A DNA stretch of 64,000 bases from Amphritea japonica ATCC BAA-1530 (GTDB lineage Bacteria; Pseudomonadota; Gammaproteobacteria; Pseudomonadales; Balneatricaceae): NCBI RefSeq assembly GCF_016592435.1, contig NZ_AP014545.1, forward strand, positions 1,240,001 to 1,304,000. The letters run 5' to 3'. Each line of letters starts with the position of its first letter. Within the stretch, counting starts at the first letter, position 1. The notes beneath the pieces were generated by a model, which saw nothing but the letters and a program-made list of their open reading frames with translations, searched no databases and had not been told where the DNA came from. The position numbers and the translations under genes are program-made. Shown here piece after piece: positions 12,200 to 25,178 of the stretch.

Positions 12200-13118
12200 T
12201 TAGTGATTAGCTAAGATTTTATCTAGAGTCAGGGTATAGAAAGTAGTTTCGGTAAAAACAGTTCGTGCATAGTTATCAGTTGTTCTTCTCCCTTTGATTG
12301 ATCCAACAAAGAGGTGCTGAGTACCATATAAGTCATAACCTTCAGCGAACTCTCCTAGGTCGACAGTTACAACGACTGGTCCACCTGAAGCTCCTTCATA
12401 TGAAGTGCAATAGCTCAGCTTGCTTCCACTTTGACCGCCGGTAAGAATGCATTTTTCATGGTAGGTAAGTATCTGTCCTTTCCCCCCAATTCCTTTATCA
12501 GCCGAGTGACCCGCAATAGTAGCGAAGGGCTTGAACTTTTTCCCAAAAAAAATCTGAATCAAGAGCATCAGAATAATCAATTGGAGAGTTAATAAGTGGT
12601 TTAATTACTTCTCTAGAAATAGCTTCGTTTAACTTAACAATTGCATAGTCCCCAGGGTTCATTTGGGCCGTAATAACTTTAGCGATTGTCCTTTTAATGC
12701 TATTACCTGAGTTAGTTGTAAAAATGGCTTCGTTATAACCAACTTTGAAGCCATTTGAGCCTTCGCTTGAGGCCCAATGGGCAATACAGTGGCCAGCGGT
12801 GATGGCGATAATGCCATCTTTTTTTGGTGAATCAACGACGATGCTCAGTGTATATTGCTCTGTATTTCCATTTCTTAAAGTAGAAGTTAAGCTTCCCACA
12901 GCCTCAAGCCATGAGGGAGAAGTTATGGATCTGATCTTTCTTGGGTCGTTGGCCATTGTTTCAGGGTAAGCTTCGCCTGAATGGTGAGTGATTTTAGAAG
13001 GGTTTTGAAAAGAAGGCTGATGAAAATTTGTAGTGAAAGATTGTTCACAAGCCTTGTTGCAGGCCGTACCAGCGAAAACTTGAGTTGTAATAAGCGCAAA
13101 TAGAAGTAGGGTCTTCAC
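12200..13118 (-). pseudogene. Secreted trypsin-like serine protease, frameshifted in a T8 run
   Basis: Two overlapping frames together encode one chymotrypsin-fold protease. The first (13118 to 12498) has a signal peptide (MKTLLLFALITTQVFA), the catalytic His in ITAGHC and the Asp in NPGDYAIVKL. The second (ending at 12200) has the catalytic Ser in YEGASGGPVV. They meet at a run of eight T on the coding strand (12545-12552). With seven T the frame reads DSDFFGKKFKPFATIAG without a break, giving about 305 residues. The triad is complete, so a sequencing error, phase variation by slippage or a recent mutation are all more likely than an old pseudogene. If the run is correct, translation ends early and the Ser is lost. 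Confidence 0.75.
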
Positions 13119-13392: not shown

Positions 13393-13469
13393 TGGTCGGG
13401 GCAGCAGGATTCGAACCTACGACCCTCTGCTCCCAAAGCAGATGCGCTACCAGGCTGCGCTATGCCCCG
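13393..13469 (-). tRNA. tRNA-Pro (TGG), copy 3 of 3
   Basis: This is a 77-base cloverleaf including encoded CCA. The acceptor CGGGGCA pairs with TGCCCCG, the anticodon loop is TTTGGGA with anticodon UGG, and the T-arm contains GGTTCGAATCC. The tRNA sequence is identical to the two upstream copies. It is the last gene of the minus-strand Asn-Asn-Pro-Pro-Pro array. Confidence 0.97.
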
Positions 13470-13516
13470 ACTAGGGTGAACATTGATTAGACACTGTGTT
13501 CTGAAGTGTTGAAAGA

Positions 13517-13593
13517 TGGTCGGGGCAGCAGGATTCGAACCTACGACCCTCTGCTCCCAAAGCAGATGCGCTACCAGGCTGCGCTATGCCCCG
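13517..13593 (-). tRNA. tRNA-Pro (TGG), copy 2 of 3
   Basis: It is identical in sequence to the neighbouring tRNA-Pro genes: anticodon UGG in loop TTTGGGA, encoded CCA end. Spacers on either side are 47 and 70 bases and not similar to each other, so only the tRNA units are repeated. Confidence 0.97.
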
Positions 13594-13663
13594 ACGAAGA
13601 ACATTATTTATACACGTAAAGTTCCAGTGTGTCTCAGAATTTACCAGTTCTATTACTAGAAGA

Positions 13664-13740
13664 TGGTCGGGGCAGCAGGATTCGAACCTACGACCCTCTG
13701 CTCCCAAAGCAGATGCGCTACCAGGCTGCGCTATGCCCCG
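13664..13740 (-). tRNA. tRNA-Pro (TGG), copy 1 of 3
   Basis: It is identical in sequence to the two following tRNA-Pro genes: anticodon UGG, CCA encoded. It lies 11 bases after tRNA-Asn in transcription order, consistent with one multi-tRNA precursor. Confidence 0.97.
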
Positions 13741-13751
13741 ATCTGAGTGAA

Positions 13752-13827
13752 TGGCTCCTCGAGCTGGACTCGAACCAGCGACCAATAGATTAACAGTCTA
13801 CTGCTCTACCAACTGAGCTATCGAGGA
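13752..13827 (-). tRNA. tRNA-Asn (GTT), copy 2 of 2
   Basis: This is a 76-base cloverleaf. The acceptor TCCTCGA pairs with TCGAGGA, the anticodon loop is CTGTTAA (GUU), the T-arm contains GGTTCGAGTCC and CCA is encoded. It is identical to the copy at 13851-13926, 23 bases upstream. Confidence 0.97.
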
Positions 13828-13850
13828 AAATCATTCATTACGGTTTCAGT

Positions 13851-13926
13851 TGGCTCCTCGAGCTGGACTCGAACCAGCGACCAATAGATTAACAGTCTAC
13901 TGCTCTACCAACTGAGCTATCGAGGA
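13851..13926 (-). tRNA. tRNA-Asn (GTT), copy 1 of 2
   Basis: It is the first gene of the array and identical to the next tRNA-Asn. Its 5' end lies 21 bases after the -10 box of the array promoter. Confidence 0.97.
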
Positions 13927-15946: not shown

Positions 15947-16012
15947 ACAAACATTGGTCATGTTTTTAACTGATTGATTTATGGGTGTTTTTAAAATATA
16001 AAAAATTGAATG

Positions 16013-16040
16013 GGCTATCCTGTAGGGGGTAGCCTTTTTT
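16013..16040 (+). terminator. Rho-independent terminator between ycaO and the SMC operon
   Basis: GGCTATCC / GGGTAGCC forms an 8-bp stem with a 6-base loop, followed by TTTTTT. It rules out a JetA start upstream of about 16040. Confidence 0.85.
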
Positions 16041-16117: not shown

Positions 16118-17524
16118 ATGCTTTTTAAAAAGCTTCCCGAAACAATATTTGTGCCCTTCTCGGGACAAAATAAACATATCTATGAAGCGGTCTTGCTGGA
16201 TCTGGCTGATCAGTTCTTTGATGAAGATCTGGTAGATCCGTTTGTGCCTAAAGACCTTATCCGCTCTTGTATCGAAGATACAGTTGTTCGTTTGGGTGTG
16301 CGTCGCTGGGAGCCTGAAGAGGGTGAGTCCGAAAGCGATCGACAGGAACTACCCCGTTCCACGGCTGAATATACCAGTCGGATCTATCGCCGTTTGGTTG
16401 AAACTGGCTGGTTGGAAGAAGAGCAGCGGATCTACCGTACCTTTGTTCTGTTATCGCCGGCCATTAGTTACTTGTTGCGAACGTTAGTTGGCATTAATGA
16501 GCTGGAAAAGCGAAGCTATGGCGGCGCGGTTCTGAATGTTCTTAGTTCCCTGGAATCTGCCATAAAAGACCCGGCGGGCAGGGGTATTACCCTGCAGGAG
16601 GCGGCGCAAACCGCAGCTGATTTCAGTGCTCACCTGACTGATATGATGCTGGGGTTGCGGGAATTAAAAATGAGCCTGGCTGCGACCTCTAATCCCCAAG
16701 AGATTGTACGTAGTTTCTTTGATCGCTTCGTGGCCCATATTCTTGTCTCTGACTACAAAACACTGAAAACGAAGAACAACCCGTTCCGCTTTCGCCGTCA
16801 GATTCTGACGATGCTACGTGATCTGCAATTTGATCCACTCAAAGTTGAAAAGTTAGCTAAACACTATCAGGAACAGTTTGAACTGGGTTTTGCCGACGCT
16901 GAGGCGATGGTGCACAGCCATATCAACCGTATTATTCGGATTTTTGAGTCGGTGGATCAGCGTTTAGCAACGATCGATGATTTCCGTTATCGTCTAGAGA
17001 AACGGGTTGCCGACACCGTTCGCTATATGGATAAAACGACGCCGGGCATGAGTTCTCGCCTGTCTCGTCTGATCTCCGATGTGTCGAAGCTTGATTCTCG
17101 CTCCATACCTCATATCAACACTTTGGAAGCGGCTGCTTTCATTGCGCCAGGTAGTGTGCGTTCACCGGTTCGGCGCAGGGTTGAAACCAAACCCCGGGTT
17201 ATTCGGCCTATTGAGATCGATCCCCGGGTGTTGGAAATGCGCCAGCTATTCAAAGAGTACAAGGCTCGCCGGGAAGTAAAACCGGAAAATATAGAGCTCT
17301 ATGTAGAACGTCATCTGCTCGATAAGAAGAAAATCAACGCGTCTGACTTCACTATTGAGTGTATCGAAGATTACATCTGCTTCAGTTACCTGCGCCACAT
17401 GCGCTCACTCGGTAAGAAAGGGCGGGGTACCGCCAATAAGTATGAGATTAAGTTCGAAGAAAAATATGTCAACGTCGCGGATATGGTTGAATGTCGCGAC
17501 TTCAGTATTCAGAGGAAAGTATAA
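16118..17524 (+). CDS. JetA/MksF-like kleisin of a Wadjet/Mks-type SMC complex
   Basis: The protein is 468 aa from the ATG at 16118 ([14 protein letters not shown]). The open frame extends to 16010 but crosses a terminator, so that start is rejected. The N-terminal pattern (short LF-x-P-E-x-F-x-P-F, then [24 protein letters not shown]) is that of the JetA family (DUF5716-like) in Wadjet systems, equivalent to MksF/MukF. A long helical middle region follows, and the basic C-terminus would contact the SMC head. The stop overlaps the next start by one base (TAATG), as expected for a complex with fixed subunit ratios. JetA/MksF bridges the two JetC heads and binds JetB. Confidence 0.78.
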
Positions 17525-18261
17525 TGCTGGGTGATCTGCAGAAAATCATCGGTCGCAGTGATCAGTATCAGGAAGAAGATTTCGTTCATGCCGCCAATAT
17601 GCTGCTGGTGAATCAATTTATCTATGCTGAGCGCTCCGGCCATCGGGATAGTTACTTTCTGGTCGCTTCTCATGTGGATTACTTTACTAATCTGTTTGCT
17701 GCTATCGGCTGGTCGCTGATTTATCAGCCAGATGAAGCTTATTTAGGCATATTGCCAAAAGGTGAAGAGCGCTTCATGCGCTTAAAGCTGGATGAGTCGT
17801 TGTTTCTGCTCTGCTTGCGTCAGCAGTATGAACAGAAGCTGGAAGCATTTGATGTGGAGGCCGGTCGGGCCTATATCACCTCTAATGACCTGCTAACACT
17901 CTATGAAAACCTCACCGGTCGTGAGATACCGAACGAAACCCGTTTGAAAGAGCTGCTGTCGTTGTTTAGTCGGCATGGAATTATCGAGCGGGGCAAGCCT
18001 CATGAAACAGACCCTAAAAATATTCCGTTAACGATTAACCCTGCGATTCGCCAGGTGGTTGTGGAAGATTTTATCGGTCAGCTAGAAGCCTTGTGCGAAG
18101 AGCAGGATGACGGCGACTCGGTCTCGGGTGCAGTGGAAGCGGGTTCTGCGGATGAGGCAGTAATTGCGCCTGAAGCTCCTTCGGAGGTGATGCCAGAAAC
18201 ACCAGCTACCGAGCCAACAGACGCCGTGATAGATGAGCCTGCACCGGAGGAGACAAACTGA
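17524..18261 (+). CDS. JetB/MksE-like subunit of the SMC complex
   Basis: The 245-aa protein has a winged-helix-like N-terminal two-thirds ([21 protein letters not shown], then [20 protein letters not shown]) of the MukE/MksE/JetB kind, the partner of the kleisin. The last 55 residues are a low-complexity acidic Ala/Pro/Glu tail, which may be specific to this lineage. The start is the ATG at 17524, overlapping the kleisin stop. The stop overlaps the jetC-like start (TGATG at 18259). Assignment rests on gene order and length more than on sequence motifs. Confidence 0.72.
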
Positions 18262-21200
18262 TGAAACAGCTCAATAGAATGGTGCTGGTTAACTGGTATG
18301 TGTTGGGTGCGGTAGAGATCCCGATTAAAGGTAATGTGGCTATTGTAGGGCCGAATGGGTCGGGTAAATCCTCTTTGCTGGATGCCATACAGACGGTGTT
18401 GATGGGGGGGAATAAAAAATACCTTAGCTTTAACGCCAGTGCGGGTGATAAAAGTGAGCGTAGTTTGCGTACTTATTGTCTGGGTTTTATGGATGATATG
18501 GGTAAGAAAGAAAACTCCCGACAGGATTCTGTTAGTTATATCGCATTGAGTTTTTTTGATACTGAGACGGGCAAAGAGACCTGTGTTGGTCTGGCCATTA
18601 GTGCGTCGCTTTCTTCACCGGAGGAGGATGTATTAGGGCGCTTTATCCTGCCTGACTTTTCCGTCTCTCTGGAGGACTTTACCGATAAGCAGGACGGTGG
18701 TCGTTTGCCAAAAGAGTGGCCAGTGGTACGGGAAAGCTTATTGAAGCAATGCCCTGACATGAAGTTGGAGAAACGCGCGAATCGCTTTATCCGTGAGTTG
18801 GTGACTGAGCTAAGTTATGACCCTCAGATGCCAAATGATGATGATAAGTTCGTTAAAAACTTTCGTAACGCACTTAAATTTGTCCCGATTAATAGCCCGA
18901 CACGCTTTATCCGTGAGTTTGTTCTGGATGAAAATATTGTCCATGTGGGGGGCTTCCGTAAGTCTCTCGATGAATACCGGGCGATGGAAGAAAAAACCCG
19001 TGAAGTCGCGAATCGCATTGGTGAGCTTGAAAAAGTTCAGGAGCAGTGTAAAGGGATCGATCGTAATGTGAAAAATTCGGTTGAGTATGAGTGGGTGGTT
19101 CACGAAACCCGATTTGAGCATGCTGATCTGAAAAAAGAGGAAGCAGAAGAGCGCCTCGAATTAAATCAGGAGAAAGAAACCACGCTACAGTCTGATCTTG
19201 AAGCGAAGAGCGAAGAGCTTAATCAGACGATGCAGTCCTTGGCGAATACCCGGGCTGAGCTGAATAACACCGACAGTGCGCATAAGGTGAAGGCGCTGGA
19301 AAACTCAATTGATGCGCGTTCTCATGAGTTGGGTGTTGTTAAAGAGAAAATTCAGCATGTTTATTCGCTGCTCCGTTCAGCGGTAAGTTTTGCGAACTAT
19401 CAGCAATACCTGCCGGAGAGTTTTATCCCGGTGGTTAAGGATTCCGTTGAACTCTGGCGCTCCGGCGAAGATATGATGGCTGAGGCATGGCCTCTGGCGC
19501 CGGTGGATGTGGATAACAATCTTAAGCAATTAAAAGATTCGGTGGACGGTGTGCGCCGGGAGATTGCGCGCCGCTTTGAAGCGTCGGTTATCCGTATGAA
19601 CGAGCTGCGCAGCGAAATACAAAGTCAGAAAAGTGCCGTGGAGCAGTTGAAAGAGGGGCGGGCGCCGTTGCGTCGTAATACCCGTGAGCTGATGCAGCTG
19701 CTGAAAGACTATGGTATTGAATCTACCCCAATCTGTGAGTTGGTGGATATCAACGATGAGAAATGGCGTATTGCGATTGAAAGTTTCCTTGGTGCACGCC
19801 GCGAAGCTCTTATTGTTGATCCCGACCGGGTTAAAGAAGCGATCACGCTTTACCGGCGTAAAGGTCGTCACCTGAAAGGTTGTCGGGTGGTTAACACCAC
19901 TAAGAGCCATGAATGGGTCAACCGGTCAAAGCCAGGTTCGCTGGCGCAGTTTGTGGATTGCCAGGGTGAAGACGCTTTGGGCTACATGAATCGCGCTCTG
20001 GGCGGTGTGATGGCGGTAGAAACTGAAAGCGAACTGATTCGCCAAGAGCGGGCGCTGACCTATGACTGCATGTTGCAGACTGAAGGAACAACGACCTCAA
20101 TCCGCGAAGAAGCGCCGATGATGGGCAGTGGTGGTGGCCGTCGTCAGCATCAGCTGCAACAGCAGGATCGTCAGGTTGATCAGATGATGGCTGAGTTCAG
20201 CGCGTTGAACAAAGATCATGAAGCGCTGGATAGTCTGAGAGAAAACCTGATCCGTATGACCGCAGCGCTGACCGGCGTGACCGAGCGGACGTTTGATCTG
20301 GTTAATCAGCGTGAGATGCTGCAATCGGAGATTGACGGCTATCGTCAGGGTATTACTGACCTGCGTAATCAGGATGATACGGGCATTCAGCAGCGTATTG
20401 CTGAGTTGGTTGAGGCGCAAAAAGCGGCTCAGGATACTCAGAAGAAACTGATGGATAAGCTACAATCTACCCGCACCAGCCTGATTAAAGATAATGCGTC
20501 TCTTGAAGTGTTGGATAATGAGCTGGAAGAACATGCTGCAGCGCGCTCTAAGTGTGAAGCTGATGCTAATTTTGATGCTCAGTCTGCTCAGGAAAAGCGG
20601 GATTATATGGATGAGTCCTGTTCCGGTGATCTGGATCGGATCATTTTTGAGTCGGCTAAGAAAGCACAGTCTGAGTTGGGGCTGGTGGAGCGAAAGAAAA
20701 ATATTGTCCGGGATGGGGTTGCTCAATACAAGGCGCGCTATCACGGTTCTGGCCTGAGTCATCAGGAGTTGGATAAGGTTGATGAAGATTCAACCCATGA
20801 GCAACTGGCTGAGTTTGTTGATCATACGATTCAATCGTTGCGTGACAGTGAGCTGGCTGAATATACCGAGAAGGCTGAGCGGGCACGGCTGGAAGCAGAA
20901 ACTTCATTCCGTTCCGATTTTGTTGCTCACTTGAAGGATCAGATTGAGAAAATTAAAGAGTTGATTCGGGAGTTGAATGCTCACTTGAAAAACCGTCCTT
21001 TCCACCGGGAAATGTACAGTTTTGAAATGATGCCTAACCCAGAGCTCAAAGATATTCTGGAACTAGTCGAAGCCTATACCCGAATGGATCAGGCTAATGT
21101 TGGCTCGCTGTTCGACATGCAATTTGATGAGAAACGTCCCCATCAGGATGCGCTGACGAAGATCCATGAAGTGCTGAAGGATGAGGGTGAAAGTAGCCTG

Positions 21201-21710
21201 TTACAGGATTACCGTAACTTTTATAACTTTGAGCTGGTGGTGAAAGATGTTGAGGGTAATCGCAAAACGACGCTGACACAGCGGATTAAGACTGGCTCTG
21301 GTGGTGAGCATCAGGTGCCGTTTTACGTTGCCATTGCTGCTGCGATGGGTGCGACTTATCGGCTGCGTGATAGCGCCGACGGCGTTACGCTGGGTGGTAT
21401 TAGCTTATCTGTATTCGATGAGGCATTTAACAAGCTGGATGCTGAAAACACCGTTACCTCCCTTGGGTTTATGAGTGATCTGGGGCTGCAGACGCTGATT
21501 GCTGCGCCGGATGATAAGTATTCACTGATGGCAACGACGATGGATACTATTATCAATGTCTGCCGGGATGGTCGGGTTGTGGATATTGATGTGGAGTTTC
21601 CAACCCAGAATGGTAAAGCGCTACTGAACTCTGATAACCCTTATCGATTGATTGACCGATCAGAAGGGGAGTCGAGTGCAGAAGATGTTGAAGGGTTATT
21701 GCCCGCTTAA
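18261..21710 (+). CDS. JetC/MksB-like SMC ATPase
   Basis: The 1149-aa protein has the SMC layout: N-terminal head with Walker A GPNGSGKSS at 30-38, a long coiled coil, a globular hinge-like segment around 484-620, a second coiled coil, and a C-terminal head with the signature SGGEHQVPFYVAIAAAM near 1013 and Walker B VFDEAFNKLD near 1051. The signature (SGGE-x-Q-x-PFY) is of the JetC/MksB type and differs from MukB. Length is between MksB (about 950) and MukB (about 1490). It would be the DNA-extruding motor of the complex. The expected fourth gene, the topoisomerase-like nuclease jetD/mksG, is not present on either side, so the complex may serve chromosome organisation instead of plasmid cleavage. 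Confidence 0.85.
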   Translation: MKQLNRMVLVNWYVLGAVEIPIKGNVAIVGPNGSGKSSLLDAIQTVLMGGNKKYLSFNASAGDKSERSLRTYCLGFMDDMGKKENSRQDSVSYIALSFFDTETGKETCVGLAISASLSSPEEDVLGRFILPDFSVSLEDFTDKQDGGRLPKEWPVVRESLLKQCPDMKLEKRANRFIRELVTELSYDPQMPNDDDKFVKNFRNALKFVPINSPTRFIREFVLDENIVHVGGFRKSLDEYRAMEEKTREVANRIGELEKVQEQCKGIDRNVKNSVEYEWVVHETRFEHADLKKEEAEERLELNQEKETTLQSDLEAKSEELNQTMQSLANTRAELNNTDSAHKVKALENSIDARSHELGVVKEKIQHVYSLLRSAVSFANYQQYLPESFIPVVKDSVELWRSGEDMMAEAWPLAPVDVDNNLKQLKDSVDGVRREIARRFEASVIRMNELRSEIQSQKSAVEQLKEGRAPLRRNTRELMQLLKDYGIESTPICELVDINDEKWRIAIESFLGARREALIVDPDRVKEAITLYRRKGRHLKGCRVVNTTKSHEWVNRSKPGSLAQFVDCQGEDALGYMNRALGGVMAVETESELIRQERALTYDCMLQTEGTTTSIREEAPMMGSGGGRRQHQLQQQDRQVDQMMAEFSALNKDHEALDSLRENLIRMTAALTGVTERTFDLVNQREMLQSEIDGYRQGITDLRNQDDTGIQQRIAELVEAQKAAQDTQKKLMDKLQSTRTSLIKDNASLEVLDNELEEHAAARSKCEADANFDAQSAQEKRDYMDESCSGDLDRIIFESAKKAQSELGLVERKKNIVRDGVAQYKARYHGSGLSHQELDKVDEDSTHEQLAEFVDHTIQSLRDSELAEYTEKAERARLEAETSFRSDFVAHLKDQIEKIKELIRELNAHLKNRPFHREMYSFEMMPNPELKDILELVEAYTRMDQANVGSLFDMQFDEKRPHQDALTKIHEVLKDEGESSLLQDYRNFYNFELVVKDVEGNRKTTLTQRIKTGSGGEHQVPFYVAIAAAMGATYRLRDSADGVTLGGISLSVFDEAFNKLDAENTVTSLGFMSDLGLQTLIAAPDDKYSLMATTMDTIINVCRDGRVVDIDVEFPTQNGKALLNSDNPYRLIDRSEGESSAEDVEGLLPA

Positions 21711-21733: not shown

Positions 21734-22465
21734 TTACAGCGTAGTGGTCCATCGGGTTCCCCGGTGGGCCATTTTTGGTTTTGGGGAATGGTAATCCGGC
21801 TCGAAGCTGCAGAGTGGTGCATTTTGACGCAGGACGATGAGCCGTTTGGGATCGTTCGGGTGGGGGCGAACCTGCCATTGATCCGGTTGATTAATTACCT
21901 CAACTAGCATGGCCTGAGCCTCGGGCGCCGGTATTCCTTTAAACTCCACCATAAAATCATCGTTATTCGGCAGGGCTAATTGCTCAGTGCGTAGGTCCTG
22001 ATACTGATGATTGGCCAATAACTGTTGCAGATGTTGAAGGTCCCAGTGTTTGGGGGCGCAGGTCAGAGGCAGGAGCCTGCCAAGGTGTCCTGGGGAGATA
22101 ACGGCGCGCTCTTTAGAGAAAAACTTGCGCACAGTCAGTTCGGTGTGGGCTTTTAATAACGAATTGTCTCGCACGTTGCCATCAAAATTTACCTGGCTTA
22201 GGCCATCAATCATGATCTGTAGATTAAAATCGCAGGCCTTAATGAATTTCCAGGCAGGTTCAAGTGAGTTTCGTGCTCCCAGGCTGTACTTGGTAGCCTG
22301 CTTGCCGTGACGTGTGTTTGCGTCCAGTACAGTAATCATCAGATAGTTACTTTGAAAATCGACCAGTGCTTCCGGTTGTTCAGTAAAGCAGCAGGAAACT
22401 TCTCGCTGGCAGAAAGACAGCCAGGCTTCTCGCGTATTCAGGTGGGGCAGACAGCGGATATTCAT
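21734..22465 (-). CDS. Conserved-looking protein of unknown function, 243 aa
   Basis: I do not recognise the family. It is a soluble protein with no signal peptide or membrane span. It has a Cys pair (VSCCF) near the N-terminus, ordinary mixed composition and a Pro/His/Arg-rich C-terminus. It is convergent with the SMC gene (24-base gap), and its last 14 codons include the terminator of that operon. It is divergent from the 117-aa gene with 65 bases between the starts. It is not similar to JetD by eye: no Toprim-like E...DxD pattern is seen. Confidence 0.6.
   Translation of the reverse strand: MNIRCLPHLNTREAWLSFCQREVSCCFTEQPEALVDFQSNYLMITVLDANTRHGKQATKYSLGARNSLEPAWKFIKACDFNLQIMIDGLSQVNFDGNVRDNSLLKAHTELTVRKFFSKERAVISPGHLGRLLPLTCAPKHWDLQHLQQLLANHQYQDLRTEQLALPNNDDFMVEFKGIPAPEAQAMLVEVINQPDQWQVRPHPNDPKRLIVLRQNAPLCSFEPDYHSPKPKMAHRGTRWTTTL
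21745..21776 (+). terminator. Terminator of the SMC operon, overlapping the convergent gene
   Basis: TGGTCCATCGGG / CCCGGTGGGCCA forms a 12-bp stem (two G-T pairs) with a TTC loop, followed by TTTTT. It starts 35 bases after the SMC stop and lies inside the last codons of the minus-strand gene at 21734-22465. Confidence 0.75.
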
Positions 22466-25073: not shown

Positions 25074-25178
25074 GTATCTGAGCTCTGCAATCATCATCCG
25101 CTTAGCGTTATTATGCGTAACACTTTTAAGAAAGTGATTAAGTAGCGGCCCGACGAAGACAGAGAGTGACCCCACGAT

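Follow-up and report, generated by a model that had tools for sequence, protein, structure and literature searches.

A Wadjet-type JetABC operon without jetD as the probable sole chromosomal condensin of Amphritea japonica and related marine bacteria

The MksBEF condensin was reportedly described by Petrushenko et al. in 2011. A chromosomal role is known for MksBEF from Pseudomonas aeruginosa (PMC7485682), in which it coexists with SMC. In the type I Wadjet of Escherichia coli the dimeric JetABC extrudes the plasmid, and the nuclease JetD is activated only once extrusion is complete (PMC12647877). MukBEF provides the precedent for a KITE-type complex which replaced SMC-ScpAB in one bacterial lineage, and a review has proposed a possible former defence stage for MukBEF and MksBEF, which would account for their diverged sequences, while calling their origin unresolved (PMC10586767). 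The existence of MksBEF condensins is already known; what is surprising about the locus described here is that it is linked to nuclease-bearing Wadjet systems and that, within a single family, it and SMC-ScpAB take each other's place. A literature search for prior reports on the genera concerned found nothing relevant.

The window, i.e. the whole stretch of DNA that was analysed, comprises 64,000 nt of the Amphritea japonica ATCC BAA-1530 genome, and coordinates refer to it unless stated differently. The operon consists of three genes on the plus strand, a jetA/mksF-like kleisin gene (16118..17524; 468 aa), a jetB/mksE-like gene for a KITE subunit (17524..18261; 245 aa) and a jetC/mksB-like gene for an SMC ATPase (18261..21710; 1149 aa), which overlap by one base each at the junctions TAATG and TGATG. 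JetA matched PF18982 of Pfam with 313.6 bits and the PADLOC profile JetA1 with 706 bits, JetB matched DUF4194 (PF13835) with 74.4 bits and JetB1 with 332 bits, and JetC, also assigned by the JetC tree, matched JetC1 with 1731 bits. The overlapping three-gene arrangement and the identities of kleisin, JetB/MksE-like protein and SMC, all of which had been put forward in the original prediction, are confirmed by these coordinates, junctions and profile matches. A longer in-frame ORF for jetA begins at 16010; the PADLOC profile sets in with the first residue of the product started at 16118. The tail of JetB is acidic and of low complexity, and the MksE model PF21980 scored 25.2 bits against JetB, slightly short of its cutoff of 27.

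With homologues of JetA, JetB and JetC in one operon, as found by PADLOC and the tree, the locus resembles Wadjet type I, with which it shares the three subunits, the gene order and the overlapping operon, and within which it is nested by sequence. It differs from type I Wadjet in having no jetD, in its spread as part of the core genome and in replacing SMC-ScpAB rather than coexisting with it. As an operon of a MukBEF-like kleisin, a KITE subunit and an SMC protein it also resembles MksBEF in the broad sense, whereas unlike the P. aeruginosa complex JetABC occurs here alone and lies on the type I JetC branch.

Terminator-like hairpins were found on both sides of the operon. The upstream hairpin, with a 10 bp stem followed by a T run, is located at 16012..16035 (+), in accordance with a terminator predicted at 16013. 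A closing terminator had been predicted as well, with a 12 bp stem at 21745; the hairpin is present at 21743..21773 (+), although with a stem of 14 bp (8 GC), and overlaps the 3′-end of a convergent ORF on the minus strand (21734-22465). Due to the convergent orientation of the gene 3′ of jetC, a fourth gene is not co-transcribed and no jetD is part of the operon, as had been anticipated. A JetD remnant 3′ of jetC was rejected, as there is no room for it and no profile match. The convergent gene encodes 243 aa and adjoins jetC in 55 named family loci; it was rejected as a substitute effector on account of having no Pfam match and being absent beside jetABC in a second family, f27.

The ATPase motifs of JetC are intact. 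Walker A (GPNGSGKS, residues 30-37, 18348..18371, +) is invariant in 17 aligned family sequences, and the family alignment is likewise invariant at the ABC signature SGGEHQVPFY (residues 1013-1022, 21297..21326, +), the JetC-type signature expected for this 1149-aa protein, and at Walker B with the catalytic glutamate (FDEAF, residues 1052-1056, 21414..21428, +). Residues G30, G33, G35, K36 and S37 of Walker A and D1053, E1054, A1055 and F1056 of Walker B are conserved also in JetD-bearing relatives. The SMC hinge domain was located at residues 490-588 (19728..20024, +; PF06470, 22.7 bits at a cutoff of 22.5). Where JetD-bearing relatives show conserved positions, JetC agrees with them at 68 of 69, JetA at 18 of 19 and JetB at 8 of 8. 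Within Amphritea, dN was 0.02-0.06 for jetA and jetC versus a dS of about 1.7-2.4, which is near saturation and renders the dN/dS ratios approximate, and both genes are conserved more than the neighbouring recQ and DUF3422 genes. Purifying selection on jetA and jetC is therefore strong. The structure model of JetA is of modest confidence (pLDDT 70), and its top Foldseek matches, JetA of E. coli JetABCD (8q72_E) followed by JetA 9qxt_E and MukBEF chains, are all weak (E 1.4e-3 and above); the JetC model is of low confidence (pLDDT 61).

The host genome is complete (3.83 Mb, one contig), and profile searches of it gave no match to JetD_C (PF09983), to the MukB N-terminal domain (PF04310) or to ScpA (PF02616), and none to SMC (TIGR02168) at E <= 1e-40; against the JetC of the window, TIGR02168 (SMC_prok_B) scored 61 bits at a cutoff of 567. 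With SMC-ScpAB and MukBEF both absent, JetABC is the only SMC-type complex detected in the host genome. Grouping with MukB was rejected because of the absence of PF04310, the MukB signature by whose lack JetABC also differs from MukBEF. SMC-ScpAB, whose cellular job is the one proposed for JetABC, belongs to a sequence family that JetABC does not match, and the two were never found together in one genome. No scar of an old smc locus was found in the 1.66 Mb of host genome searched, and no jetD was found around the orthologs at 78 named loci of the host family, for which flanks of at most 10 kb were covered.

Sampling of 60 host-family genomes gave a JetC ortholog in 54, with 63-99% identity and as a single-copy core locus; three of the 54 orthologs are broken, split or fragmentary. 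The named bearers are Amphritea, Aliamphritea, Marinobacterium, Neptunomonas, Neptuniibacter, Nitrincola, Pontibacterium, Motiliproteus, Pokkaliibacter, Balneatrix and Osedax symbionts. Neither SMC nor ScpA was detected in any of the 54 ortholog-bearing genomes. In genus g2 the ortholog is missing from all four genomes, SMC is present in all four and ScpA in three. One genome of genus g10 (G026) has no ortholog, and ScpA and SMC only as broken fragments. In this small genome (L184) in-frame TAA codons interrupt both ScpA and rpoB, and a fragment is all that was found of SMC; the cause may be pseudogene formation, errors in the sequencing or an unusual code. Another genome with neither ortholog nor SMC (G010) was rejected as a counterexample, since the syntenic DUF3422 gene is missing too, which makes an assembly gap the likelier cause. 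In a genome scored 78% complete (G002, L185), frameshifts interrupt both jetA and jetC and are probably sequencing errors.

For the order, 392 genomes were surveyed, with a close ortholog defined by at least 800 bits. Such an ortholog was found in 34 genomes, divided equally between the host family (17) and family f27 (17), whose JetC is 40-42% identical to that of the host. ScpA was present in none of the 34 genomes with the ortholog and in 343 of the 358 without it (Fisher p about 1e-37, which is no true probability as the genomes are related), and these raw counts overstate the strength of co-occurrence because few independent clades underlie the pattern. The 15 genomes with neither ortholog nor ScpA comprise nine with SMC and six draft assemblies, several of them incomplete. 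In f27, all 17 sampled genomes carry the ortholog and have no SMC, JetC itself being the top match to the SMC model. MukB was found in one of 97 genomes tested.

Taken together, a nuclease-less JetABC motor of Wadjet lineage has probably become the sole chromosomal condensin of these bacteria and replaced SMC-ScpAB. As no other complex of this class was detected in the genome, JetABC has most likely taken over the chromosome-folding role from the standard SMC condensin, and the absence of every other condensin points to a function in chromosome organisation and segregation. A chromosome-organising condensin was one of two readings offered by the original prediction, and it is strongly supported by the absence of SMC-ScpAB and MukBEF, a check which the prediction itself had proposed, and by the mutual exclusivity of JetABC and SMC-ScpAB across the order; the replacement of SMC in two families and the descent from nuclease-bearing type I Wadjet had not been foreseen. 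In such a complex, two JetC proteins would be joined at their hinges and closed by the JetA kleisin with its JetB KITE subunits, and ATP hydrolysis by JetABC would drive the extrusion of chromosomal DNA loops, leading to folding and segregation. With JetD lacking, no cut would follow once a circle has been fully extruded, and the motor would therefore be free for housekeeping on the chromosome.

More distant type I JetCs (26-35% identity) occur in genomes that keep SMC, and in 11 regions (L155, L156, L158-L162, L175-L178) jetD follows directly after jetC; in L157, L163 and L179 a contig end or a stop codon truncates the region. Among type I operons on plasmids, jetD is present in L192, L193 and L195 and not found nearby in L191 and L194. 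In f27, jetD is absent from seven regions of 18-19 kb. MksB-like proteins of about 1200 aa make up a second group, which is found beside SMC and both with and without JetD; in the tree these proteins, which come from genomes of the order that have SMC, branch as a clade separate from the JetC described here.

A JetC tree of 48 sequences was rooted with the 1200-aa MksB-like group. The JetD-free JetCs of the host family (f1) and of f27 form one clade (100/100), which is nested among the type I Wadjet proteins that have JetD (support of the outer nodes 97/92 and 100/98). In the JetD-free clade the end branches measure 0.02-0.13 versus mostly 0.8-2.0 for JetD-bearing lineages, and the length of the latter makes the rooting uncertain. 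The local order jetABC, bolA, UPF0149, recQ, ttcA is common to the host family and f27, which favours a common chromosomal locus over separate acquisition. In the rpoB tree the SMC-bearing g2/g10 lineage falls within the host family (98/99), with the deeper order poorly resolved; the JetABC genomes were not recovered as a single clade, although their monophyly was not rejected (AU p = 0.077). To account for this placement of g2/g10, one needs coexistence in the ancestor with reciprocal loss, or else re-acquisition or transfer. The simplest history starts from an ancestor that had both complexes, with reciprocal loss thereafter, and re-acquisition of SMC by g2 is a possible alternative. It is moderately probable that a plasmid-defence system turned into the sole chromosome condensin in this way: in an ancestor of the two gammaproteobacterial families a type I Wadjet was deprived of its nuclease, existed beside SMC-ScpAB for a time and then displaced the latter in nearly all descendants, with one genus retaining SMC and losing JetABC. 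The loss of jetD from the JetABCD operon would then have preceded the split of the two present families, and that of SMC-ScpAB would have come afterwards in most lineages.

The direction from defence to condensin could also be read in reverse, with JetABC having always been a chromosomal condensin of the MksBEF type, never a defence system, and with its relatives having gained JetD later; such a history would differ in origin and not in present function. The MksBEF condensins of P. aeruginosa do have housekeeping roles (PMC7485682). However, JetD-bearing operons surround the JetD-free clade on all sides and occur in the 1200-aa outgroup as well, so that loss of JetD is the simpler reading and an origin without a defence stage is considered unlikely.

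Descent of a sole condensin from a nuclease-bearing Wadjet would offer a more recent and traceable case of the transition from defence to condensin, with extant relatives on either side, namely nuclease-bearing Wadjet, nuclease-free JetABC in genomes that lack SMC, and SMC without JetABC within one family, and it makes the proposed transition directly testable. The bearers of JetD-free JetABC are a large group of marine bacteria and a natural source of JetABC motors without a nuclease, and automatic defence annotation may mislabel a housekeeping condensin as an incomplete Wadjet.

Wadjet motors work on circular DNA (PMC10586767) and plasmid maintenance is influenced by MksB in other bacteria (PMC10123090), both of which would suit a nuclease-free guard that silences or destabilises foreign circles such as plasmid or phage DNA by compaction, as proposed for Smc5/6, and has no main chromosomal role. 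Whole families would in that case live without a chromosomal condensin, and no account is given of why the SMC-bearing g2 genomes are those without JetABC, which makes a pure guard improbable; guarding as a side role beside the condensin work is possible.

The second reading of the original prediction, a defence complex with an unlinked nuclease, is not supported. Such a plasmid defence would recruit an unlinked JetD or an unrelated enzyme encoded elsewhere. It agrees with the PADLOC classes JetA1, JetB1 and JetC1 and with the few family genomes which encode JetD elsewhere, namely three of the 54 ortholog-bearing ones. In one of these (G036) JetD adjoins a different, type II-like JetC; the JetD genes of the other two (L001 in G028, L006 in G039) have no recognisable JetC within 3.5 kb and are possibly orphan nucleases or parts of other Wadjet types. 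The host and 51 of the 54 genomes show no JetD above the cutoff, and whereas defence operons are patchy, this operon is near-universal, syntenic and slowly evolving. As the strict exclusion of SMC-ScpAB would also be left unexplained, recruitment of a remote nuclease is very improbable. A decaying Wadjet remnant after nuclease loss can practically be dismissed in spite of the missing effector gene, since nearly all genomes have the three genes intact, with invariant ATPase motifs and strong purifying selection, and the sole frameshifted copy sits in the incomplete genome described above.

Near oriC of the host genome, parA and parB, recognised by conserved motifs, are kept in the absence of SMC-ScpAB, with parB near 3824018 (-). 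Two parS-like sites at 25098 and 29491 of the host contig (G000:C1) each differ by one mismatch from TGTTYCACGTGRAACA, and none was found in five shuffles. The persistence of ParAB and parS-like sites without SMC makes it testable whether ParB can load a Wadjet-type motor. Elsewhere in the window, three tRNA-Pro(TGG) genes are clustered with two tRNA-Asn(GTT) genes at 13393-13926 (-), and a 104-aa mechanical ORF at 13471-13785 results from translating them. Two overlapping ORFs of 126 and 206 aa at 12200-13118 (-) resemble a frameshifted or split trypsin-like protease.
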